Assembly: GCF_007666205.1 (NCBI RefSeq)
Contig: NZ_VDOR01000010.1
Location: 1 to 64,000 of the forward strand
From: Kocuria palustris
GTDB taxonomy: Bacteria > Actinomycetota > Actinomycetes > Actinomycetales > Micrococcaceae
Direction of reading: 5' to 3'
Length of the DNA: 64,000 nt
Position 1 is the first letter of the stretch. Every line of letters begins with the position of its first letter. The translations under genes and the position numbers were made by a program. The notes under the pieces are model-generated. The model did not search any database and was not told the DNA's origin. It saw nothing but the letters and a program-made list of their open reading frames with translations. Shown here piece after piece: positions 2,540 to 58,632 of the stretch.

Positions 2540-3184
2540 ATGAAGAAGTCCATCTGGACTACCAGCATGGCCGCTACCGCAGCGGCGAGCATGCTCGCGC
2601 TGACCGCCTGCGGAGGCACCGCGGAGGAGGAAGACGCACAACCCGCGCCCTCGCAGACGGCGTCCGAGGCGGCGGCTGCGCCGTCGACATCGTCCGAGTC
2701 ATCGAATATGGACATGGGCATGGGCATGGATCATGGTTCCGGGGGTATGGCCGGGCACAATCCCGAGGGCGGGCCCCCGCCCGAGGGCATCGAGACCGCA
2801 GCCGATCCCACCTATCCGATCGACTCGACGGCGGTTCTCACCGCTGACCACATGCCCGGCATGGCGGGGTCAGAGGCGACGATCTCGGGTGCCTTCGACA
2901 CGACGGCCTACTCGGTGAGCTACACGCCCACAGATGGTGGCGAGCCCGTCGTCGACCACAAGTGGGTCGTGCACGAGGAACTGGAGAACCCCGGTGAGGC
3001 ACCGCTGCCGGAGGGCACCGAGGTCGTGCTGAATGCCGATCACATGCCCGGCATGAACGGCGCCGAGGCGACGATCGAGAGCTCGACCGAGGAGACCGTG
3101 TACATGGTCGACGTCGAGATGGACGGCATGGAGATGACCAACCACAAGTGGTTCGTCGAGAGCGAGCTTCAGCCCGCCCAGTAG
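2540..3184 (+). CDS. YdhK family (DUF1541) lipoprotein, copy 1
   Basis: 214-residue exported lipoprotein. A short basic-hydrophobic signal ends in lipobox LTAC with the lipidated Cys at 24. An acidic, Ser/Ala/Pro-rich linker is followed by a Met/His cluster (MDMGMGMDHGSGGM) and two DUF1541 repeats (about 98-147 and 160-211). Each repeat opens with ADHMPGM and ends with a HKW(V/F)V motif. DUF1541 proteins are often next to copper resistance genes but have no settled biochemical role. The Met/His content and position after copB suggest metal binding outside the membrane, which is inference. Strong RBS AAGGAGA at 2529-2535; 109 bp after copB, probably the same transcript. Confidence 0.88.
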   Translation: MKKSIWTTSMAATAAASMLALTACGGTAEEEDAQPAPSQTASEAAAAPSTSSESSNMDMGMGMDHGSGGMAGHNPEGGPPPEGIETAADPTYPIDSTAVLTADHMPGMAGSEATISGAFDTTAYSVSYTPTDGGEPVVDHKWVVHEELENPGEAPLPEGTEVVLNADHMPGMNGAEATIESSTEETVYMVDVEMDGMEMTNHKWFVESELQPAQ

Positions 3185-3274
3185 GCGCGAAGGGCACAGT
3201 GTTCTGGCTCTCGCGTCTTCACGAACTCTTCATGGCTTCGCTCTTCCGCCTCTCGCCGATCACTGTCTACGGTT

Positions 3275-3310
3275 AACGGAGCGGGTTGATGCCTACCAGC
3301 CCGCTCCGTT
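3275..3310 (+). promoter_or_regulatory. 11-bp perfect inverted repeat in csp leader
   Basis: AACGGAGCGGG (3275-3285) and CCCGCTCCGTT (3300-3310) form a perfect hairpin with a 14-base loop, ending about 11 bases before the RBS of the copper-storage gene. No U-tract follows, so it could be an operator, an RNA structure affecting translation, or a weak terminator of the preceding operon. Confidence 0.5.
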
Positions 3311-3334
3311 CGGATCGACAGAAGGAGCGAGACC

Positions 3335-3745
3335 ATGACTCATCACGTGAGCTCGATGCTGGAGACGTACCCGAAGGATCTCGGCGGCATCGACACCCAG
3401 AAACTGGCCGAATGCATCGAGGCCTGCTTCGAGTGCGCGCAGACCTGCACCGCCTGCGCCGACGCCTGCCTGGCCGAGGACATGGTCGCGGAGCTGACCC
3501 AGTGCATCCGTCTGAACCTGGACTGCGCCGACCTCTGCGAGACCACCGGGAGGGTGCTCTCCCGCCAGACCGGCAACAACATCGACGTCAACCGCGCCGC
3601 GCTCGAAACGTGCCGGACGGCGTGCCGGTCCTGCGCCGAAGAGTGCGAAAAGCACGTGGATATGCATGAGCATTGCCGGGTCTGCGCGGAGGCGTGCCGG
3701 CGCTGCGAGATCGCCTGCGCGGATCTGCTGGCCTCTCTGGATTGA
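3335..3745 (+). CDS. csp: four-helix-bundle copper-storage protein (Csp, DUF326)
   Basis: 136 residues with 18 cysteines arranged as repeated CxxxC and CxxC pairs (for example CIEACFECAQTCTACADAC), the hallmark of Csp proteins. In these, Cys residues line a four-helix bundle and bind many Cu(I) ions. There is no signal peptide, so this is the cytosolic Csp3-like type: a buffer or store for copper inside the cell. AGAAGGAG lies before the ATG. It is the last gene of the copper island, 150 bp after ydhK, with its own leader containing an inverted repeat. Together with CopB (export) and YdhK (outer surface) it would give a three-level copper defence; that division of labour is inferred. Confidence 0.9.
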   Translation: MTHHVSSMLETYPKDLGGIDTQKLAECIEACFECAQTCTACADACLAEDMVAELTQCIRLNLDCADLCETTGRVLSRQTGNNIDVNRAALETCRTACRSCAEECEKHVDMHEHCRVCAEACRRCEIACADLLASLD

Positions 3746-4081
3746 GACCGGCCTGCTCAGACCTTTGTTCGCCTTCCAGCAGGCTGAGGCTTGCCGCAGC
3801 AAGCTGGGGGCGAACCTCAACCGTGGGGGAGATGCCAACGGCGCCAAGCCACAACCAGGTGAGGATGACTGCGCGGTCTACCAGTGGCGTCCGGACCCAG
3901 TAATCCATGGGTCGTGGGTTCGATCCCCACAGGGCCCACTCCTTCTCCGCCGCCCGCTGCGGTGATACTGCTCATCTCGCCGATCTCCTGGGAGCTCCAC
4001 TGGGTCTGGGGGCTTCCGGTGATCGACAGGATCCGTGATCGGGCAGGACGGCCATCGGCAGGCACGACGACGGAGGCGCGG
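3746..4081. other. gene-poor junction between copper island and backbone
   Basis: 336 bases without a convincing gene. It contains a small hairpin CTTGCCGCAGCAAG near 3791-3804 and the tRNA-Thr 3' fragment at 3900-3938. It ends with the GGAGG ribosome binding site of the MFS gene at 4072-4076. An open frame runs through the tRNA fragment into the MFS gene, but that part is a translation of tRNA sequence and not protein. Confidence 0.7.
3900..3938 (+). mobile_element. 3' half of a tRNA-Thr gene, probable attachment-site scar
   Basis: From GTAATCCAT onward the sequence is the 3' half of a threonine tRNA: the last anticodon bases plus AA, the 3' anticodon stem TCCAT, a variable loop GGGTC, a perfect T-arm (GTGGG, TTCGATC, CCCAC), the acceptor strand AGGGCCC and discriminator A. 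The 5' half, including the matching GGGCCCT and ATGGA strands, is absent upstream. Such 3' fragments are left when a tyrosine-integrase element inserts into a tRNA gene. The orientation places the element to the left, covering the copper genes. The intact tRNA-Thr would be outside the window. Confidence 0.7.
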
Positions 4082-5329
4082 ATGATGGCGGTGCAGCAGC
4101 GGTCGGCGGCCGGCGGATCGGGGGCGGCAGGGGTCACCCAGCGGCGCATCGTTCTGGTGCTCGTGCTGGGACAGATCCTGGGTGGGCTCGGCACCGGAGC
4201 GACCTTGAGCCTCGGGGCCCTGCTGATCACCGAGATCTCCGGATCGTCCGCGTGGTCGGGGATGGCCGCGACCATGAGCACGCTGGGGGCCGCCGTCTTC
4301 GCGATGCCGCTGGCGGGTCTCGCCCAGGCACGGGGGCGCCGACGCTCCCTGAGCGCCGGCGCGCTCACCGCGGTGGTCGGGGCGGTCCTGGCCGTGACGG
4401 CCGCGGCGGCGGGCAGCCTGGTCCTGCTGCTGGCCGGCATCCTGCTGATCGGCGCCGCGCAGGCGGTGAACCTCCAGTCGCGGTTCGCGGCCACGGATCT
4501 GGCCTCGGCGGGCAGCCGCGGCAGGGACCTGTCCCTGGTCGTGTGGTCGACAGCGATCGGAGCCGTCGCCGGGCCGAATCTGCTGGGCCCGGGGGAGACG
4601 CTGGGCGGCTGGCTGGGCATGCCCCCGCTGACGGGCGCCCTCGCGATCACCGCCGCGGCGCAGCTGCTGGCGGCCGCCGTCTACCTGACGGGCCTGCGTC
4701 CGGACCCGCTGCTGACGGCCCGCGCTCGCGGCGCCGCGCAGCAGCGCGCGGCAGGGCCCGCGGAGCCGTCGGACAGCCCGTCGGCGAGCCCGTGGCGCGC
4801 GGTGCTCACCGTGGCGCTGAGCCACGCGGTGATGGTCTCGCTCATGTCCATGACGCCCGTGCACCTGCAGGACCACGGGGCCTCGCTGAGCATCATCGGC
4901 CTGACGATCAGCCTCCACATCGCCGGGATGTACGGGCTCTCCCCGGTCTTCGGCATCCTGACGGACCGGGCGGGAGCCCGCTCCACGGTGCTGCTGGGGC
5001 AGGTCCTGCTGGCGGCGGCGCTGGCTCTCTCGCTCCTCGGCGCGGAGTCCTCCGGCGTGGTGACCGCGAGCCTGATCCTGCTGGGGCTCGGCTGGTCGGG
5101 CTCGACGGTCGCGGGGTCGGTGCTGGTCAGCCGCGCCGGGGTGCCCGCACGGCGTCCTCGCATCCAGGGACTGTCCGACACGCTGATGAATCTCTCCGGG
5201 GCCCTGGGCGGCGCGGGCGCCGGGCTGATCCTGGCGGCGGTCGGCTTCAGCGGGCTCGCCGGGTTCCTGCTGATCCCGGTGGGGATCGTCGGGCTCGTGC
5301 AGCTGACCGGCGGGCGCCCGGCCCGCTGA
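4082..5329 (+). CDS. MFS transporter
   Basis: About 415 residues with roughly 12 hydrophobic segments and an MFS loop 2-3-like motif (LAQARGRRRSLSAGAL). A central hydrophilic loop rich in Ala/Pro/Ser separates the two six-helix halves. ATG 4082 (tandem ATG at 4085) is chosen because GGAGG at 4072-4076 is correctly spaced; the frame is open further upstream only through a tRNA fragment. Substrate unknown; resemblance is to drug or small-molecule efflux carriers. It is the first backbone gene right of the probable attachment scar and converges on the UvrA-like gene, 25 bp away. Confidence 0.85.
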   Translation: MMAVQQRSAAGGSGAAGVTQRRIVLVLVLGQILGGLGTGATLSLGALLITEISGSSAWSGMAATMSTLGAAVFAMPLAGLAQARGRRRSLSAGALTAVVGAVLAVTAAAAGSLVLLLAGILLIGAAQAVNLQSRFAATDLASAGSRGRDLSLVVWSTAIGAVAGPNLLGPGETLGGWLGMPPLTGALAITAAAQLLAAAVYLTGLRPDPLLTARARGAAQQRAAGPAEPSDSPSASPWRAVLTVALSHAVMVSLMSMTPVHLQDHGASLSIIGLTISLHIAGMYGLSPVFGILTDRAGARSTVLLGQVLLAAALALSLLGAESSGVVTASLILLGLGWSGSTVAGSVLVSRAGVPARRPRIQGLSDTLMNLSGALGGAGAGLILAAVGFSGLAGFLLIPVGIVGLVQLTGGRPAR

Positions 5330-11124: not shown

Positions 11125-13317
11125 ATGACAGATCCACACGCACAGCATCGGGAGGGGGCCTCGCCCGCGTCCGGAGCCCACGCCGTCGACCACCCCGGCG
11201 ATCACCGCGAAGAGCGCTCGGGGCACGGCGGCCCCGGAGAGAGCCCCGGGCCTGCAGGCGACGTCGGCCACCACGCGCACGACGGCCACGAGGGGCACAG
11301 CGGCCATGGCGGTCACGGCGGACACGACCACGTGGCCATGTTCCGCCGCCTGTTCTGGATCTCCCTGGTGATCTCGATCCCCACGATCCTGCTCAGCGGC
11401 AGCTTCGCCCACCTGGTGGGCTACGAGCTGCCGGACAGCCTGCTCGTCACCTGGACTCCTGTGGTGCTCGGCACGGTGCTCTACGTCTGGGGCGGCCGCC
11501 CGTTCCTGACGGGGGCGGTCGACGAGCTCCGGCAGCGCAAGCCCGGCATGATGACCCTGATCGGCCTGGGCATCTCGGTGGCCTTCCTGGCGTCGTGGGG
11601 CAGCCACCTCGGACTGCTGCCGGCGGACCTGGAGTTCTGGTGGGAGCTGGCGCTGCTGGTCGTGATCATGCTGCTGGGGCACTGGGTCGAGATGGCCTCG
11701 CTGGCCCGCACCTCGAGCGCGCTCGACGAGCTCGCGGCCCTGCTGCCCGATGAGGCGGAGGTCCTCGAGCCCGACGGCTCGACCCGCACCGTGGCGCCGT
11801 CGGAGCTGGCCGTCGGCGATCGGGTGCTGGTGCGCCCGGGCGGGCGCATCCCCGCCGACGGCGCGGTGACCGAGGGCGAGGCCGACGTCGACGAGTCCAT
11901 GGTCACCGGCGAGTCGATCCCCGTGACCCGCGGCGCGGGGGAGCGGGTCGTGGCCGGCACGGTGGCCACCGACCGGCCCCTGACCCTCGAGGTCACCGAG
12001 ATCGGCGAGAACACGGCCCTGGCCGGCATCCAGCGCCTGGTCGAGGATGCCCAGTCCTCTTCCACGCGGGCCCAGCGCCTGGCCGACAAGGCGGCGAACC
12101 TGCTGTTCTGGTTCGCGCTCATCACCGCGGCGATCACCGCCGTCGTGTGGCTGATCTTCGACACGCCCGCGACGGCCCTGGTCCGCGTCGTCACCGTCCT
12201 GGTCATCGCCTGCCCCCATGCCCTCGGCCTGGCGATCCCGCTGGTCGTCTCGATCTCGACCGGCCGGGCCGCGCGCCAGGGGGTCCTGGTCTCCGACCGG
12301 CAGGCTCTCGAGGGCGTCCGCACCGTCGACACCGTCGTGTTCGACAAGACCGGCACGCTGACCCGCGGCGAGCCGGCGGTGCTCGACGTGCGGCTGGCCC
12401 CCGACGCGCCGTCGGAGATCGACGAGGACCGGCTCGTGGCTCTCGCGGCCGCGGCCGAGGCGCAGAGCCAGCATCCGCTGGCGCGGGCCATCGTGGCCTC
12501 GGCGGAGGAGCGCGGCGCAGAGGTGCCGCATGCCGCCGAGCACGACAGCGCGACCGCGGTCGGCGTCTCGGCGTCCGTGGACGGCGCCGACGTCCGCGTG
12601 GGCGGCCCCGCGCTGCTGAGCCGGGCCGACGTGCAGCCGCTGCCGAGCGAGGACTGGGAGCGCGATGGGCGCACCGTCCTGCACGTGCTGGTCGACGGCC
12701 GGGTCGCCGGGGCGCTGGCCCTGGCCGATGAGGTCCGCCCCGCGGCCCGCGAGGCGATCCAGGCCCTGCACGACCTGGGGATCGAGACCGCGATGCTGAC
12801 CGGCGACGCCCGCAGCGTCGCCGAGGCCGTCGGCCGCGATCTCGGCATCGATCGCATCGAGGCCCAGGTCCGCCCCGAGGACAAGAGCAGCCGCGTCCGG
12901 CAGCTGCAGGAGCAGGGGAAGAAGGTCGCGATGGTCGGCGACGGGGTGAACGACGCGCCGGCCCTCGCCCAGTCGGACGTCGGGCTCGCCATCGGCGCCG
13001 GGACCGATGTGGCCATCGCCTCGGCGGGGATCATCCTGGCCTCCGACGACCCCCGCGCGGTGGTCTCGGTCGTGCGGCTCTCGCGGGCCTCGTACCGGAA
13101 GATGGTGCAGAACCTGTGGTGGGCCGCCGGGTACAACCTGATCTCGGTGCCCCTGGCGGCCGGCGTGCTGGCCCCGATCGGGTTCGTCATGCCGATGGCC
13201 GTCGGCGCGCTGCTCATGGGCGCCTCCACGGTCGTGGTCGCCCTCAACGCCCAGACGCTGCGCAGCCTCGATCTCGCCCCCGAGGCGGCTGTCGAATGGG
13301 CGCGGAGCCAGGGCTGA
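11125..13317 (+). CDS. copB: P1B-3 type copper-translocating ATPase CopB, copy 2
   Basis: 730 residues, collinear with copy 1 from VAMFRRLFWISL to the C-terminus and clearly paralogous. The His/Gly/Asp-rich N-terminus is longer (about 70 residues, with HGGHGGHDH). CPH is at 363-365 and phospho-Asp D407 is in DKTGTLT. TGE, SQHPLARAI and GDGVNDAP are all present. Start ATG 11125 follows GAGGAGG (11113-11119); the open frame upstream belongs to other genes. Its third codon positions are almost all G/C, like its neighbours, so this is probably the resident copy. It is followed 109 bp later by a ydhK gene, the same order as in the island. Confidence 0.93.
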   Translation: MTDPHAQHREGASPASGAHAVDHPGDHREERSGHGGPGESPGPAGDVGHHAHDGHEGHSGHGGHGGHDHVAMFRRLFWISLVISIPTILLSGSFAHLVGYELPDSLLVTWTPVVLGTVLYVWGGRPFLTGAVDELRQRKPGMMTLIGLGISVAFLASWGSHLGLLPADLEFWWELALLVVIMLLGHWVEMASLARTSSALDELAALLPDEAEVLEPDGSTRTVAPSELAVGDRVLVRPGGRIPADGAVTEGEADVDESMVTGESIPVTRGAGERVVAGTVATDRPLTLEVTEIGENTALAGIQRLVEDAQSSSTRAQRLADKAANLLFWFALITAAITAVVWLIFDTPATALVRVVTVLVIACPHALGLAIPLVVSISTGRAARQGVLVSDRQALEGVRTVDTVVFDKTGTLTRGEPAVLDVRLAPDAPSEIDEDRLVALAAAAEAQSQHPLARAIVASAEERGAEVPHAAEHDSATAVGVSASVDGADVRVGGPALLSRADVQPLPSEDWERDGRTVLHVLVDGRVAGALALADEVRPAAREAIQALHDLGIETAMLTGDARSVAEAVGRDLGIDRIEAQVRPEDKSSRVRQLQEQGKKVAMVGDGVNDAPALAQSDVGLAIGAGTDVAIASAGIILASDDPRAVVSVVRLSRASYRKMVQNLWWAAGYNLISVPLAAGVLAPIGFVMPMAVGALLMGASTVVVALNAQTLRSLDLAPEAAVEWARSQG

Positions 13318-51866: not shown

Positions 51867-54026
51867 TCAGCGGCGGCGCCGGGCGAAGACCTCTGCGATC
51901 GCCTCGAGGGCCTCCTCGTTCTGCAGGGAGGAGCGGTCGCCCAGCGGCCTGTCCTCGTAGAGCTGGCCGAGCAGGCGGCGGGTGATCTTCCCCGATCGGG
52001 TCTTGGGCAGATCCGGCACCGGGACGACCTCCCGGGGCTTGGCGATGGGGCCGATCTCGCGGGCCACGTGGGCGCGCAGGGCCTCGTGCACCTCGGCCTC
52101 GGGCAGCCTCCGGCCCTCCGGGGTCAGCACCACGCAGGCCAGCACGGCGTGGCCGGTGAGCTCGTCGGCCACCGGGGCGGTCCCGGCCTCGACGACCAGG
52201 GGGTGGGTGACCAGGGCCGACTCGATCTCGATGGTCGACAGGCGGTGGCCGGACACGTTGATGACGTCGTCCGCGCGGCCCAGGATGTGCAGGTCCCCGT
52301 CGTCGTCCAGGCGGGCGCCGTCGCCGGCCAGGAACCAGCCCCGCTCGCCGTAGTGGGCCCAGTACGAGCTCAGGTACCGCTGCGGATCGCCCCACACGGT
52401 CCGGGCCATGGACGGCCCGATGGCATCGACGACGACGAGGCCCTGCTCGCCCGCGGGGACGTCGCCGCCCGCGGCGTCGACGACGCGCGTGGAGACCCCC
52501 GGAACCGGGCGCACGGCGCAGCCCGGCTTGGGGGTCGTGCCGGGCGTGCCCTCCGGGAACGTGCCCTCCGGGGCGAACTGCGGATCGTGCGGGCGCGGGG
52601 AGGCCACGCACGAGCCCGTCTCGGACTGCCACCACGTGTCCACGAACGGGACCTCGTCGCGGCCGACGTGACGGCGCAGCCACCGCCAGGCCTCCGGGTT
52701 GATGGACTCGCCGACCGAGCCCAGCAGGCGGATCGAGGAGAGGTTCCAGATCTTGGGCAGCCCGTTGGGGAACGCGCCCATGAGCGATCGGATCAGGGTC
52801 GGGGCGGTGTAGTAGCTCGTCACCCCGTAGCGCTCGATGATCTCGAAGTGGCGCCCGAAGTCCGGGGTGCTCGGCGTGCCCTCGTAGAGGACCTGGGTCA
52901 CCCCGTTGACCAGCGGCCCGTAGATCTCGTACGTGTGCGCGGTGACCCAGGCCAGGTCGGCCGTGCACCAGTGCACCGCGGAGTCCACCTTGGCGGGGTC
53001 GTTGACGGCGGAGAGCTCCTGCGGGCGCAGCGCGCCGTCGTCGTCGGGGGCATCGGGCAGCAGGTCGAAGAGCAGCGCGTGGGTGTACGCGGACTGCACC
53101 AGGTAGCCGCCCATGGTGTGCACGAGGCCCTTGGGCCGGCCGGTGGTCCCGGAGGTGTAGATGATGAACAGCGGGGTCTCGGCGTCGAAGGCCTGTGCCT
53201 CGTGCACCTCGGAAGCCGTCTCGGTGAGCTCGTGCCACCACAGGTCGCGCCCCGCGGTCCAGGGCACGTTCATCTGGTCGTTGGAGCGAGCGCCGCGCTT
53301 GCCGACGGGCAGGCGGGGGTTGCCCGCGCGCGACGTCCGGCGCACGACGAGCACGTGCTCGATGCTGTTGTCCCCGGCGCACGCCTCGTCCGCCTGCGCC
53401 TTGACGGGCACCGCGGAGCCGCGGCGATTCTGCCCGTCCGCGGTGACCAGGATCCTGGCGCCGGTGTCCTCGACGCGGAAGCGCAGGGCCTCCGCGGAGA
53501 AGCCGCCGAAGACCAGCGAGTGCACGGCGCCGATCCGCGCGCAGGCCAGGGTGATGATGATCGTCTCGGGGATGACCGGCAGGTAGATCACCACCCGGTC
53601 GCCCGGGACCACGCCCAGGCCCTCCAGGGCATTGGCCGCCCGTGCGACCGCCTTCTGCAGGTCGGTGTACGTCCACGTCTGGCGGTCCCCGGGCTCGCCC
53701 TCGAAGTGCAGGGCCACGTGGGAGCCGCGGCCGGCCTCGACGTGGCGGTCCACGCAGTTGTGCGCGACGTTGAGCCTCCCGCCCTCGAACCACGCGATCT
53801 CGGGCACCGAGAAGGTGGGGCTCCCGTCGTCGTCGGTGCCGATGCGGCGCGGCTTCTCGAAGCGATGCGCGGTGTGCCAGGGCTCGGCCCAGTCGAGCCG
53901 GGAGGCCTGCTGCTCCCAGAACTGCACGCGAGCCTCGTCCGAGACGCGGGCGGGGTTCGGGGTGGGGCGCAGGGGATCGGAGTAGGAGCCGCCCGTGCTC
54001 GGGGCGGACGAGGGCGCAGGACTCAT
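51867..54026 (-). CDS. acs: acetyl-CoA synthetase-like AMP-forming ligase
   Basis: 719 residues, somewhat longer than standard Acs (about 650). P-loop YTSGTTGRPKG, WWQSETGS, GRADDVINVSGHRLSTIEIESALV and the acetylation-site motif PKTRSGKITRRLL. Activates acetate or propionate with CoA; which acid is preferred is uncertain. A hydrophilic insert (VPVKAQADEACAGDNSIEHVLVVRRT) is normal for the family. ATG 54026 follows GGAG at good spacing; GTG 54029 is an alternative. It may supply acetyl-CoA for acetylation of homoserine used by MetY downstream. Confidence 0.9.
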   Translation of the reverse strand: MSPAPSSAPSTGGSYSDPLRPTPNPARVSDEARVQFWEQQASRLDWAEPWHTAHRFEKPRRIGTDDDGSPTFSVPEIAWFEGGRLNVAHNCVDRHVEAGRGSHVALHFEGEPGDRQTWTYTDLQKAVARAANALEGLGVVPGDRVVIYLPVIPETIIITLACARIGAVHSLVFGGFSAEALRFRVEDTGARILVTADGQNRRGSAVPVKAQADEACAGDNSIEHVLVVRRTSRAGNPRLPVGKRGARSNDQMNVPWTAGRDLWWHELTETASEVHEAQAFDAETPLFIIYTSGTTGRPKGLVHTMGGYLVQSAYTHALLFDLLPDAPDDDGALRPQELSAVNDPAKVDSAVHWCTADLAWVTAHTYEIYGPLVNGVTQVLYEGTPSTPDFGRHFEIIERYGVTSYYTAPTLIRSLMGAFPNGLPKIWNLSSIRLLGSVGESINPEAWRWLRRHVGRDEVPFVDTWWQSETGSCVASPRPHDPQFAPEGTFPEGTPGTTPKPGCAVRPVPGVSTRVVDAAGGDVPAGEQGLVVVDAIGPSMARTVWGDPQRYLSSYWAHYGERGWFLAGDGARLDDDGDLHILGRADDVINVSGHRLSTIEIESALVTHPLVVEAGTAPVADELTGHAVLACVVLTPEGRRLPEAEVHEALRAHVAREIGPIAKPREVVPVPDLPKTRSGKITRRLLGQLYEDRPLGDRSSLQNEEALEAIAEVFARRRR

Positions 54027-54443
54027 CACATCACTCCATCGGTCCTGGCATTAGCACCGTGTGCCGCGTAATGGACGGCACGGGTTGCTGCGGCGTCGAC
54101 GAGCCAGGTCTCTCGGCCGCTCCGGATGGGAACCGGGGTCAGTCAAAGCCCTGCGCGCCCCGATCGGCAAATCGGGCGTCGTCCGGGGCAGCGGACGGCC
54201 CGGCTTTCCGACCAGGGCACTCATGCGCTTAGGATGACGCCCACACGATCAAGAGTTCCGGCCCACAGCCCTGGCTGGCCGGACGGCAACCCTCTCCCGT
54301 AGCGGGGTGCCCCAGGTGAGGATCGGGCCGCGCGCTAGACCGCGCGCGGCAAGTACGGCGCCCTCACGCGCTGGACCCGCAGGTATGACCACTGCACGGT
54401 GGCGCACGGGGCGCGGGTCCACCCGACCCAGGAGGACATCTCC
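54027..54443. other. divergent intergenic region between acs and the monooxygenase
   Basis: 417 bases. The right part is the riboswitch leader of the monooxygenase gene (54245-54362). The left part carries the acs promoter region and a small hairpin CCCGAT/ATCGGG at 54159-54176. No gene seen. Confidence 0.8.
54245..54362 (+). ncRNA. SAM riboswitch, SAM-I/IV clan (SAM-IV-like)
   Basis: Stem P1 CGATC (54246-54250) with GATCG (54321-54325); P2 TCCGGCC/GGCCGGA (54257-54263, 54277-54283). The conserved core CGGCAACCCTC (54284-54294), GGGGTGCCCC and AGGTGAGGATC is followed by a downstream GC hairpin (54327-54334 with 54343-54350) ending GGCAAG. This closely follows the layout of SAM-IV aptamers, known mostly from actinobacteria; the ATCAAGAG start also resembles SAM-I. 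It binds S-adenosylmethionine and should switch off the monooxygenase gene when methionine is plentiful. Confidence 0.88.
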
Positions 54444-55865
54444 ATGACCAAGCGGATCTCGCTCAACGCGTTCGACATGACCTGCGTGGACCACCAGAGC
54501 TTCGGCCTCTGGCGGCACCCGCGCTCGCGGGCCACGGAGTACAACACGATCGAGTACTGGACCGACCTGGCCCGGACCCTGGAGCGGGGCCGGTTCGACG
54601 CCCTGTTCCTGGCCGACGTCGTCGGCATCTACGACATCTACCGCAACTCCGCGGCCCCCGCGATCGCCGACGGCGCCCAGGTCCCGGTCAACGACCCGTT
54701 CCTGCAGATCTCCGCCATGGCCGCGGTGACCGAGCGCCTCGGCTTCGGCGTGACCAGCGCCGTCACCTACGAGCAGCCGTACACGCTGGCCCGGAGGTTC
54801 GCCACGCTCGATCACCTCACCCGCGGCCGCGTGGGCTTCAACGTGGTGACCTCCTACCTGCCCTCGGCGGCCGAGAACCAGGGCCTGCCCACCCAGATCG
54901 AGCACGACGAGCGCTACGAGATCGCCGACGAGTTCCTCGACGTCTGCTACAAGCTGTGGGAGGGCTCGTGGGAGGACGGCGCCGTCGTCAAGGACCGCGA
55001 GCGCGGCCTCTACGCCGACCCGGCCAAGGTGCACCCGATCCAGCACCGGGGCAAGCACTTCTCGGTGCCCGGCGCCGCGCTCACCGAGCCGAGCCCGCAG
55101 CGCACGCCGCTGATCTTCCAGGCGGGTGCCTCCTCCCGGGGCCAGGCCTTCGCCGGCAAGCACGCCGAGGCCGTGTTCATCGGAGCGCTGCGCCCGGATC
55201 TCACCCGACACATGACCGATCGCATCCGCGACAACGCCGAGGCGCAGGGGCGCGACCGCGACGACGTGAAGATCTACGCGATGCTCTCCGTCGTGGTCGA
55301 CGAGACCGACGAGAAGGCCCGGGCCAAGCACCGCGAGTACCAGGAGTACGCGAACCTCGAGGCCTCGCAGGCCATCATCGGCGGCTGGTCCGGACTGGAC
55401 CTGTCGACGTTCCAGGAGGACGAGGTCCTGAACTACGTCAAGACCGAGGCCATCCAGTCCTTCCTGACCCCGTTCACGATGCAGGACGGCGCCAAGCAGT
55501 GGACCCGCGAGGACATCGCCCGGCACTGCGCGCTCGGCGGGATGGGTGATGTGGTCGTCGGCTCCCCGCAGACCGTGGCGGATCAGCTCGAGACCTGGAT
55601 CGACGACGGCGGCCTGGACGGCATCAACCTGGCCTACCACGTGTCTCCGGGGTCGTTCGAGGACTTCGTGGAGCTGGTGGTGCCCGAGCTGCAGAAGCGC
55701 GGGCGGTACCGCACGGACTACGACGGGCCGACCCTGCGCGAGAACGTCTACGGCGCCGGGCAGTCCAGGGTGCTCGACACCCATCCGGCGGCAAGGTACC
55801 GCGGGGCCTATGCGGGCCGGGCCTCGACGGCGGACACCCCCTCGCGGGACCTGACGGAGGTCTGA
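54444..55865 (+). CDS. FMN-dependent monooxygenase, NtaA/SnaA/DszA family
   Basis: 473 residues of the bacterial-luciferase-like flavin monooxygenase group. NAFDMTCVDHQSFGLWRHP, RFDALFLADVVGIYD, TLDHLTRGRVGFNVVTSYLPSAA and FQAGASSRGQAFAGKHAEAVF are family signatures. Members use reduced FMN and oxygen on nitrilotriacetate, sulfones or other organosulfur compounds. Because it lies under a SAM riboswitch, release of sulfur from an organosulfur compound is the likely role. AGGAGGA before ATG 54444. It converges on the MFS gene. Confidence 0.9.
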   Translation: MTKRISLNAFDMTCVDHQSFGLWRHPRSRATEYNTIEYWTDLARTLERGRFDALFLADVVGIYDIYRNSAAPAIADGAQVPVNDPFLQISAMAAVTERLGFGVTSAVTYEQPYTLARRFATLDHLTRGRVGFNVVTSYLPSAAENQGLPTQIEHDERYEIADEFLDVCYKLWEGSWEDGAVVKDRERGLYADPAKVHPIQHRGKHFSVPGAALTEPSPQRTPLIFQAGASSRGQAFAGKHAEAVFIGALRPDLTRHMTDRIRDNAEAQGRDRDDVKIYAMLSVVVDETDEKARAKHREYQEYANLEASQAIIGGWSGLDLSTFQEDEVLNYVKTEAIQSFLTPFTMQDGAKQWTREDIARHCALGGMGDVVVGSPQTVADQLETWIDDGGLDGINLAYHVSPGSFEDFVELVVPELQKRGRYRTDYDGPTLRENVYGAGQSRVLDTHPAARYRGAYAGRASTADTPSRDLTEV

Positions 55866-55887: not shown

Positions 55888-57198
55888 TCACCCCGCCCGT
55901 CGCGGCAGCGGGCCGAAGCGGTCGGTGTCCGGACCCAGCAGCCCGCCGATCGCCACCAGCAGACCGGCCAGCACGAGGAGCGCGGCCACGGCCCCGTGAC
56001 GGCCCAGGGCCTCCTGCAGGGGCGGCAGGTAGTACGGGTAGAGGGCCGGGAGCACGATCGAGAGGCTGTAGGCGGCGCCGTAGCCGGTCGAGCGCACGCC
56101 GTCGGCGAAGCGCTCCGTCAGGTACGCGCCCACCGGCCCGTAGCAGGTCACCGTGGCCACCTGCAGGGCCGCGGCGAGCATCAGCACGGGGCCGGTGCCC
56201 TGCACCGCGAAGACCGCCAGGAAGATCAGCGGCGAGACGACGGCGGCGGCCAGGCCGAAGGCCACGAAGAACCGGCGCCGCCCCGTGAACGTGGACAGAT
56301 GCCCTGCTGCGGCCATCGCGACCGCAGAGACCGCCGTGGCGCACATCATCACCAGCGACACGTGCGCCGCATCGATCTGCCCGGAGGCCCCGAGCTCGGC
56401 GGTGAACGTGGTCACCGCCATGTAGGTGAACAGCCACAGCCCGCTCATCAGCACGAAGACCTGCCACAGCCGCCGGCCGCTGCTCGCGAGCTCGGCCACG
56501 GGGCGGGCGGCCGAGGCCGCCGGCTGCCGCCCGGGGGCGTCCGCGATGCGCAGCCGGTAGTAGGCCAGCATCCCGGCGGCCATCGCGGCGCCGATGAGGA
56601 AGGGGATGCGCCATCCCCAGGCGGCGTAGTCCTCGGGGCCCAGCCCCTGGATGAGCGCGAAGGTCAGCGCGGCGATCGTGGCGTTGGCGCAGGGGGACAT
56701 GGCCATGATGAAGCCGCTGACCCGGCCGCGTGAGCCCGGGCGGGCCCACTCCATCGCCAGGGGCACGGCGGAGGTGTACTCCCCGCCCAGGAACACGCCG
56801 CCCAGGAAGCGCAGGATCAGCACCGCCCAGAACGTGGCCGCCCCCAGGACGTGGTGGCCGGGGACCAGGGCGATCAGCAGGGTGGTGAGGCTGATCCCGG
56901 CCAGCGCGATCTGGGTCACGACGGTGCGGCCCACCCGATCCGCGATCGGCCCGAAGACCAGCGAGCCCAGGGGCCGCCCGATCAGTGTGGCCACGAAGAT
57001 CAGGCTCGCCCGGAACACGGCGTCCTGCTCGCCGAACAGCTGCGCGGCGGCCGGGCCCAGCGCCATCACCGGGAGGAAGATGTCGAACTGATCGACGAAG
57101 TTGCCCATGATCCCGCCGCGGATCGCGTGACGGGTGCGCTCAGGGGGACGGGGATCCCCCGTGTCCGTGGTCGGGGCGTGCGCGGATGATGCCGTCAT
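55888..57198 (-). CDS. MFS transporter under TPP riboswitch, likely thiamine-related
   Basis: 436 residues, 12 helices, metabolite:H+ symporter group (like ShiA/citrate/proline-betaine carriers): ADRVGRTVVTQIALAGIS (loop 2-3), GGVFLGGEYTSAVPLAMEW (helix 4) and RGRVSGFIMAMSPCAN. The leader contains a TPP riboswitch, so expression is expected to fall when thiamine pyrophosphate is high. That points to import of thiamine, its pyrimidine or its thiazole precursor. MFS carriers of this subgroup are not standard thiamine transporters, so the substrate needs testing. Confidence 0.87.
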   Translation of the reverse strand: MTASSAHAPTTDTGDPRPPERTRHAIRGGIMGNFVDQFDIFLPVMALGPAAAQLFGEQDAVFRASLIFVATLIGRPLGSLVFGPIADRVGRTVVTQIALAGISLTTLLIALVPGHHVLGAATFWAVLILRFLGGVFLGGEYTSAVPLAMEWARPGSRGRVSGFIMAMSPCANATIAALTFALIQGLGPEDYAAWGWRIPFLIGAAMAAGMLAYYRLRIADAPGRQPAASAARPVAELASSGRRLWQVFVLMSGLWLFTYMAVTTFTAELGASGQIDAAHVSLVMMCATAVSAVAMAAAGHLSTFTGRRRFFVAFGLAAAVVSPLIFLAVFAVQGTGPVLMLAAALQVATVTCYGPVGAYLTERFADGVRSTGYGAAYSLSIVLPALYPYYLPPLQEALGRHGAVAALLVLAGLLVAIGGLLGPDTDRFGPLPRRAG

Positions 57199-57205
57199 GC
57201 GATCA

Positions 57206-57292
57206 CTTCCTTCGCCGGTGCTGACCGGAGCAGGTTCGACGGTCGAAGCCGCGTCAGCTTCCTCTCAGCCCGTGCGCCGGGCTCCCGTGGGG
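57206..57292 (-). ncRNA. TPP riboswitch (THI element)
   Basis: On the minus strand the leader reads CACGGGAGCCC, then CGGGCTGAGAGG, a hairpin GAAGC...GCTTC region, ACCGTCGAACCTG, CTCCGGTCAGCACCGGCG and AAGGAAGTG. The CUGAGA and GAACCUG cores plus the CCGG/CCGG pyrophosphate-side hairpin are diagnostic for the thiamine pyrophosphate aptamer. The gene starts about eight bases downstream, so control is most likely translational through AAGGA at the 3' end of the element. Confidence 0.92.
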
Positions 57293-57423
57293 TCGTCGTC
57301 CAGTCTGCTCCGCCGCCCGGGATCGGCCAACTCCGTGACAACCGCGACGACCCGCCGACGTCGACGTCCGGCCCGGTCGGAGGCGGATTCGCGGTGCCGG
57401 TGATCCGCGGGCACAGTGGGCTC

Positions 57424-58632
57424 ATGCAGAACCACCGCGACGGCCCGGCCCGGTCCCCCGAGACGACCCGCGCGGGGGCGGCCGGCGCACAGGCGCCCTG
57501 CGCGGATCGGGTCGGCGCAGGGGCGTCGTCCCGGCTGCTCGGCATCGATCTGGCCCGGGCCGTCGCCCTGCTGGGGATGATGGCGACCCACACCCTGTCC
57601 CTCGTCGACCCGGCGGGGAACCCCATGCCCGTCGCGCTCATCGCGGGGAAGGCCGCGGCCCTGTTCGCGGTGCTCGCGGGGTTCTCCGTCGAGCTGTCCA
57701 CGCGCCGGTACGACCGGTGGCGCGACGCCGCCGCGGCCCTGGCGGTGCGCGGGGCGCTGATCGCGCTCATCGGCCTGGTGCTGAGCTGGCTGTCGACCTC
57801 GATCGCGGTGGTGCTCGTCCAGTACGGCGTGCTGTTCCTGCTCGCACCGCTGGTCCTGCGCCTGCCCACCCGGTGGCTGGCCGTTCTCACGGCCGTCTGG
57901 CTCGCGGCCTCGCCGGTGGTCTCGCATCTGCTGCGCGACGCCTGGGCCCTGCCGCGGGCCGCCGTCTCCCCGGACATCACGCATCTGGCCGATCCCGGCT
58001 ATCTGGCGGTCTCGGTCCTGCTCACGGGCTACTACCCCGTGCTGCAGTGGATGGGCTACCTGCTCGTGGGCCTGCTCATCGCGCGGCTCGACTGGCGCAG
58101 CGGGAGGACCGCCGTCCGCGCCGTCATCGCCGGCGCGCTCGCGGCGGGGCTGGCCTGGGCGTCGTCGCAGATCCTGCTGGCCCAGGGCGGGGCGGAGGCG
58201 ATCGAGCGCGCGGCCGCCGGGCGCGGGCTGCTGGAATGGGGATCGCCGCACCTGGCCAGGCACATCAGCAGCCACGGGACCACGCCCACCGACACGTGGT
58301 GGTGGCTGGCCACGGCCGGTCCGCACTCGTCGACGACCTTCGACCTCGTCCACACCGCCGGCATCGCGGTCGCGGCCATCGCCGTGTGCGTGCTGATCTG
58401 CCGGGCGCTGGGGGACGACGTCCGCATCCTGATGCCGCTGCTGGCGGCCGGGTCCATGCCGCTGACCATGTACGCGCTGCACGTGATCATGTCCGGCTTC
58501 ATGGCCCTGTACCTGCTGCAGGTCATCGTGCTGCTCGCACTGGCGACGGTCTGGCGCGCGGGCGGCGACGGCCCCGGCCCGCTCGAGAGCCTGGTCTCCG
58601 GAGCCGTGCGGGCCGTCGTCCCGCGGCGCTGA
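57424..58632 (+). CDS. HGSNAT/DUF418-like multi-helix membrane protein
   Basis: 402 residues, about ten helices. After a hydrophilic N-terminus, RLLGIDLARAVALLGMMATHTL begins the membrane region as in heparan-glucosaminide N-acetyltransferase-like and DUF418 proteins. The His in MATH is the presumed acyl-accepting residue. Possibly acetylates a surface sugar; substrate unknown. ATG 57424 and upstream GTG 57394 both lack a clear RBS. Same family as the truncated gene at 77. Confidence 0.75.
   Translation: MQNHRDGPARSPETTRAGAAGAQAPCADRVGAGASSRLLGIDLARAVALLGMMATHTLSLVDPAGNPMPVALIAGKAAALFAVLAGFSVELSTRRYDRWRDAAAALAVRGALIALIGLVLSWLSTSIAVVLVQYGVLFLLAPLVLRLPTRWLAVLTAVWLAASPVVSHLLRDAWALPRAAVSPDITHLADPGYLAVSVLLTGYYPVLQWMGYLLVGLLIARLDWRSGRTAVRAVIAGALAAGLAWASSQILLAQGGAEAIERAAAGRGLLEWGSPHLARHISSHGTTPTDTWWWLATAGPHSSTTFDLVHTAGIAVAAIAVCVLICRALGDDVRILMPLLAAGSMPLTMYALHVIMSGFMALYLLQVIVLLALATVWRAGGDGPGPLESLVSGAVRAVVPRR

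Follow-up and report, generated by a model that had tools for sequence, protein, structure and literature searches.

A TPP-riboswitch-linked MFS carrier of Kocuria palustris and other Actinomycetota is a predicted importer of the thiazole half of thiamine

The window analysed here is a stretch of 64,000 nucleotides from Kocuria palustris (contig NZ_VDOR01000010.1, positions 1 to 64,000). Its minus strand carries a gene for a carrier of the major facilitator superfamily (MFS), which in the window's list of open reading frames starts with an ATG at 57198, has a stop codon ending at 55888 and encodes 436 amino acids. The downstream neighbour (54399-55865, plus strand) is convergent with the carrier gene, and the gene at 57394-58632 is divergent from it. 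Here the carrier has a TPP element and no thi neighbour; in many of its relatives a thi cluster is seen. The features of the locus are as follows.

55888..57198, minus strand: coding sequence of a stand-alone MFS carrier of 436 aa, predicted HET (thiazole) importer (open reading frame, Pfam, NCBIfam, AlphaFold2, homologues and tree)
57190..57298, minus strand: TPP riboswitch aptamer, RF00059, with P2, P3, P3a, P4, P5 and a weak P1 (Rfam and 19 related leaders)
57206..57210, minus strand: Shine-Dalgarno-like GGAAG in the 3' part of the aptamer (position and spacing)

Two other observations were made in the window. At 54025-54361, two different SAM riboswitches lie back to back. The plus-strand element, SAM-IV (99.7 bits), precedes an NtaA/DmoA-type monooxygenase; the minus-strand element, S-box SAM (56.1 bits), precedes an AMP-binding acyl-CoA-synthetase-type gene, after which comes a Cys/Met-metabolism enzyme. 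A likely duplication is seen in two P-type ATPases (E1-E2_ATPase) of 659 aa that have a near-identical N-terminus and are encoded 9 kb apart, at 451-2430 and 11338-13317.

At E <= 0.001 the carrier matches only two Pfam models, MFS_1 (PF07690), at 94.2 bits against a cut-off of 33.4, and Sugar_tr, at 60.7 bits against 22.3. This sets it apart from YkoEDC, ThiT, PnuT and ThiXYZ, which take up thiamine precursors or the vitamin under TPP riboswitch control, and agrees with a sequence-only reading of this DNA, which had held that the gene is none of the usual thiamine transporters (ThiT, YkoE, ThiXYZ, PnuT). An AlphaFold2 model (mean pLDDT 93.4, pTM 0.91) has a general MFS fold that aligns to solved MFS carriers; no match in that fold comparison was informative about the substrate, and a sequence search of the PDB gave weak MFS matches only. 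By profile, the closest named family is that of the metabolite:H+ symporters (TIGR00883; YhjE, ProP and others), which is the best NCBIfam model for the protein, and all 60 proteins of alignment A4 match it at E 1e-10 or better (best 7e-64). With 153 bits, the window protein stays below the curated cut-off of 443.45, which the positive controls YhjE (509.9) and ProP (482.1) exceed; two other members of its clade, L040 and L081, score 145.1 and 134.5, and a homologue without a TPP element, L053, scores 183.5. The window protein is 28% identical to YhjE. The description "metabolite:H+ symporter-type", given from the sequence alone, is thus right as to the nearest named family, but the protein falls outside the curated subfamily.

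The aptamer was found as a full-length match to RF00059 at 57298-57190 on the minus strand, covering model positions 1-105, with 51.8 bits and an E-value of 1.3e-9 in a 271-base search (3.2e-9 in a search of the whole genome). Its 3' end overlaps the carrier's coding sequence by a few bases. The score is 2.5 bits below the curated gathering cut-off of 54.3, so the element goes undetected when the window is scanned at gathering scores. In the Rfam alignment there are three non-standard pairs, two in P1 and one in P2, and when the leader is folded alone the minimum-energy form is another structure, not the aptamer (z -1.8). The stretches CUGAGA and GAACCUG are named conserved parts of TPP riboswitches; these stretches and helices P2, P3, P4 and P5 are conserved, judging from the full-length match and 19 aligned related leaders. 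Those leaders share predicted helices P2, P3, P3a, P4 and P5, and at 8 of the 24 predicted pairs at least one sequence has a compensatory change, with both sides altered and pairing kept. We rejected a chance aptamer on the grounds of this conservation. The consensus fold of the 19 leaders (alignment A5) has no P1, a helix that is weak or shifted in the window's subclade. A sister genome (G120) has the same arrangement and the same neighbour genes, with an aptamer of 64.6 bits and a carrier 69% identical to that of the window. The "clear TPP aptamer" of the sequence-only reading is therefore real by sequence and conservation, but, being below threshold when taken alone, it is not plainly clear.

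With 7 nt between the end of the GGAAG and the ATG, the ribosome binding site probably lies inside the 3' part of the aptamer. In the consensus fold of the 19 leaders, the AGG of this run pairs with a CCU in P4 (columns 95-97 with 119-121). With the binding site placed and paired in this way, TPP binding by the leader should hide it.

Homologues were counted in 149 genomes of the family, drawn evenly from a larger group. At E <= 1e-40 there are 23, including the window's own, and in 17 of the 23 (window included) a TPP element heads the unit. Within short first loci, an Rfam scan of the 22 homologues other than the window's detected the element in 8; longer loci, up to 17 kb, were examined for 20 of the 22, and for the other two (G104 and G121) no TPP element was seen within the short loci. 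No element was found by pattern within 14-15 kb in the loci of G096, G018, G084 and G069, the last of which has one weak match to our covariance model R1 3 kb away (E 0.02). Model R1 was built from aptamers without P3a and scores the other type poorly, so we used a pattern scan and Rfam beside it; the pattern scan missed several leaders that Rfam detected. Three arrangements recur in the family: TPP-thiD(-tenA)-carrier-thiM-thiE, TPP-thiC-carrier (among relatives sometimes extended by thiM-thiE), and a TPP element directly 5' of the carrier.

For wider relatives, genome contigs were scanned with a 17-protein alignment (A1) and the best 80 of 160 were kept. Of these 80, 78 have actinobacterial titles, the exceptions being L063 and L077. 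L063 belongs to a record titled Vibrio cholerae strain 35D, has an Arthrobacter-like carrier and leader, and groups in the tree with two Arthrobacter; its assembly is probably mislabelled or contaminated. In 69 of the 80 best relatives, a TPP element heads the unit by pattern, model or Rfam: it is directly 5' of the carrier in 33, and followed by thi genes and then the carrier in 36. The counted elements include weak ones (L086, 37.1 bits; L066, 43.3 bits). Four further relatives are in a thi operon in which no TPP element was found, three of them at contig edges, in six none was found, and L070 has a distant one only. Reading the leaders adds an element in three more (L068, L069 and L070), and none was found in L095, L132, L134 and L138 after pattern, model, Rfam and leader reading. 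In plasmid records, the best carrier match of each is below 60% identity.

In a tree of 96 rows, obtained by a quick search and with long branches flagged, 86 form one group (SH-aLRT 100) that comprises the window, the thi-linked rows and other near rows. Nearest outside it are G096, L132 and L134, then G018, G084 and G069, with four E. coli symporters far out. These six outlying homologues are all ones in which no TPP element was found, and we did not take them as members: G018, G084 and G069 are 35-37% identical, lie outside the clade and gave no TPP element in a pattern scan of 14 kb, and the group of G096, L132 and L134 lies outside the clade with no TPP element found. From its open reading frame list alone, the neighbourhood of G096 resembles other catabolism. 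L095 and L136 are inside the clade although no TPP element was found for them. L086, L137 and L138 had no usable frame and were left out; G104 and G121 are also absent from the tree and, with no TPP element within their short loci, were not counted as members.

The genes found with the carrier point to its substrate. ThiM lies in the same locus and on the same strand in 44 of the 80 best relatives, and 26 of the 80 loci have no thi gene in the stretch examined. In many relatives the carrier comes directly after thiD or thiD-tenA, an arrangement that favours HMP, the pyrimidine moiety of thiamine, as the imported compound. However, thiC, the gene for HMP synthesis, is upstream on the carrier's strand in 17 of the 80 loci, and directly before the carrier in 15 of these.

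We therefore compared the carrier with ThiC, ThiG (thiazole synthesis) and ThiM (HET kinase) across the 149 family genomes. Matches to ThiC of any kind were seen in 58 genomes, and ThiC was counted as present in 55 of them, excluding G048 and G096 (weak and short) and G083 (broken). In G083, which is of the window's genus, ThiC matches in three pieces within one 432-aa frame (C2:967689-968441), with large parts of the profile missing and a TPP element about 380 bases upstream. ThiG was counted in 96 genomes at E below 1e-80 (52 have weak matches only and one has none), and ThiM in 65 genomes over the Pfam cut-off. ThiM is present in 17 of 17 carrier genomes vs 48 of 132 others (Fisher p 2e-7), ThiG in 2 of 17 vs 94 of 132 (p 3e-6), and ThiC shows no association (4 of 17 vs 51 of 132, p 0.29), Fisher values that overstate independence because the genomes share ancestry.

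Sorted by these genes, the carrier is in all 4 genomes with ThiC and ThiM and no ThiG, in 11 of 31 with ThiM only, and in 2 of 12 with ThiG and ThiM and no ThiC (G034 and G119). It is absent from genomes with all three genes (0/18), with ThiC and ThiG and no ThiM (0/32), with ThiC only (0/1), with ThiG only (0/34), and with none of the three (0/17). Fifteen of the 17 family carrier genomes thus have ThiM and lack ThiG. In genera g4, g11 and g21, all 19 genomes have either both the carrier and ThiM or neither, and among the eight genomes of the window's genus G036 is the sole exception to this match.

This distribution is not what an HMP importer would give. ThiC-less, ThiG-positive genomes need HMP and not thiazole, yet only 2 of 46 in the family have the carrier, and ThiC itself is present in 4 of the 17 carrier genomes of the family and in 23 of 49 in the second survey described below. 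HMP as the substrate is accordingly very unlikely. Import of intact thiamine, or broad transport of both thiamine and its parts, would suit the facts that TPP riboswitches control thiamine importers in many bacteria and that most carrier genomes are predicted thiamine auxotrophs. But the 17 family genomes without ThiC, ThiG and ThiM, which should need thiamine itself, all lack the carrier, even though they include species of g4, g11 and g21, genera in which others have it; the carrier also tracks ThiM, which is dispensable for thiamine uptake. We consider this alternative unlikely, and on the gene-content classes rejected both the thiamine and the HMP importer. The class pattern is the one expected of an importer of HET, the thiazole half; since the carrier is found mostly in bacteria without thiazole synthesis but with ThiM, thiazole is its most likely substrate, and the three candidates named from the sequence alone (thiamine, HMP or thiazole) appear to narrow to the last.

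A second survey covered 49 carrier genomes. It drew on 50 of the 80 loci, named isolates taken by rank (L110 was not covered), leaving out metagenome bins, L063 and lower-ranked isolates; four of its genomes (L081, L107, L114 and L128) are shared with the 17 family carrier genomes. ThiM was found in 48, ThiC in 23 and ThiG in 4, ThiG thus being absent in 45 of the 49 (genome completeness not given). The sole carrier genome of the 49 with no ThiM match at E <= 1e-15 is G162, a Promicromonospora. Thi4 is another thiazole synthase; of the 66 carrier genomes searched for it (four counted twice), 65 were without a match at E <= 1e-10, and the single match covers 48 of 235 positions.

Twenty of the 35 family genomes that have ThiM and lack ThiG are without the carrier, including G036 of the window's genus, so HET must have another entry route. 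A search for ThiW matched in 0 of the 149 family genomes, and gave no match in control genomes either, so the zero carries no weight. We inspected 14 of the 20 thiM loci of these carrier-less genomes, with a crude gene caller that returned few genes in some. In three of them, from genomes of one genus that have ThiM and lack ThiG and this carrier, a xanthine/uracil-type permease (PF00860) follows thiM-thiE-thiD (L146 9776-10897, L153 8286-9602, L154 7596-8912), possibly another precursor importer; in the remaining 11 no transporter was recognised in common.

In the host assembly (G000), which comprises 61 contigs and 2.82 Mb, six TPP elements were detected with an E-value cut-off of 0.001. By domain scans, the genes adjoining them are ThiD-TenA, YkoE with an ABC/CbiQ fusion, and ThiM-ThiE; two of the six are on an 11.5-kb contig and the sixth is that of the window. 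In the search for missing thiamine genes that the sequence-only reading had suggested, no match to ThiC was found, ThiG gave weak matches only (best 8e-7), and ThiM is present in two copies. On this gene content, the predicted requirement of the host is for thiamine or for both of its halves. YkoE is separate from the carrier and under its own TPP element, and a host that already has this system is a further point against the carrier as a thiamine importer. The 11.5-kb contig (L007, G000:C15, 1-11517) encodes a MobF relaxase and a second thiamine salvage set, namely ThiM, a ThiE-like frame, a ThiD-like frame, a nudix protein and two TPP elements, and is apparently a mobile thiamine module.

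On the same contig, at 2841-5161, a TPP element heads a short-chain dehydrogenase and an NtaA/DmoA-type FMN monooxygenase. Homologues of the monooxygenase at E <= 1e-120 are present in 43 of the 149 family genomes, and in the best 30 of the 43 loci (L156-L185) model R1 finds a TPP element in every case. The dehydrogenase partner was confirmed in L007, L042, L045, L070 and L128 among the loci examined for it. A literature search gave no description of such a TPP-headed module. Some genomes with the monooxygenase, such as G062, have ThiG and no ThiM, and for this reason an altered precursor of thiamine may be what the module salvages.

Alternatively, the carrier might transport something related, for instance an oxidised thiazole or a product of thiamine breakdown, or might export surplus HET. 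In L042, L045, L070 and L128, the carrier has a TPP-controlled dehydrogenase and FMN monooxygenase beside it or close by, which would fit salvage of altered precursors in these relatives, and the direction of MFS transport is not readable from sequence; the ThiM/ThiG comparison, moreover, fits HET and a close thiazole derivative alike. Against this, the dehydrogenase/monooxygenase pair is in only 2 of the 80 loci (L070 and L128) within the stretch examined. Export sits poorly with control by TPP, under which the gene is presumably on when TPP is low, as would suit uptake better, and with the 45 of 49 carrier genomes that lack ThiG. Taken together, these alternatives seem quite unlikely beside import of HET.

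Among known systems, ThiW is an HET transporter of the ECF type. The carrier shares its predicted substrate and differs from it in sequence, matching MFS models only in Pfam and not the ThiW profile (PF09512). A predicted MFS carrier for HET is already in print, namely ThiU of Haemophilus, the source of which is said to be Rodionov 2002. According to PMC10588857, ThiU (H. influenzae HI_0418, TC 2.A.1.6.12) is a predicted and experimentally untested HET transporter, an MFS carrier in a thiamine gene cluster whose substrate was predicted from gene clustering and phylogenetic profiling; the same text reports that, among published transporters, ThiU has the greatest similarity to YhjE of E. coli. 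Table 1 of PMC6593275 gives ThiW/ThiU as the HET transporters. The text of that paper reports ThiW in only 64% of the HET auxotrophs of a gut genome set, which implies that HET carriers are missing, and calls knowledge of thiamine-precursor transporters incomplete.

The carrier resembles ThiU in being an MFS protein with predicted HET import. Clustering with thi genes is seen in many of its relatives, and in the window there is a TPP element with no thi neighbour. The carrier differs in that the window gene stands alone and its relatives are nearly all from Actinomycetota. YhjE, the protein that ThiU is reported to resemble, scores 509.9 bits in TIGR00883 vs 153 for the window protein. The carrier probably works as ThiU is predicted to, but it is more likely a separate branch, and we infer a separate origin for its lineage, ThiU being set apart here through its reported similarity to YhjE and not through its own sequence. 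Among the papers listed by full-text searches of open literature, we recognised none on a TPP-controlled MFS carrier for HET in actinobacteria; prior annotation in supplementary tables is possible.

Based on the gene content, leader and relatives described above, we believe that the gene encodes an MFS carrier that imports HET and is repressed by TPP, with a probability of roughly 0.75. The carrier would bring in 4-methyl-5-(2-hydroxyethyl)thiazole, probably by proton symport, and the imported HET would be phosphorylated by ThiM and then coupled to HMP-PP by ThiE. When TPP is plentiful, the leader aptamer would be bound and the ribosome binding site held in P4 and its flank, so that translation would stop; when TPP is scarce, the carrier would be made.

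On balance, we lean towards a broader reading in which the protein represents an unnamed MFS family that is distinct from both ThiU and the metabolite:H+ symporters and that originated within Actinomycetota to carry HET specifically. Its recruitment would have been independent of ThiU and ThiW, and it would be a main route of thiazole uptake for members of many genera that lack ThiG, among them Brachybacterium, Janibacter, Knoellia, Cutibacterium, Micrococcus, Salinibacterium and Cryobacterium. Carriers of thiamine precursors are poorly known, and this lineage, large within the actinobacteria and marked by a clean pattern of gene content, is a good target for a direct test. If confirmed, its function would sharpen the prediction of which bacteria depend on the thiazole of their neighbours.
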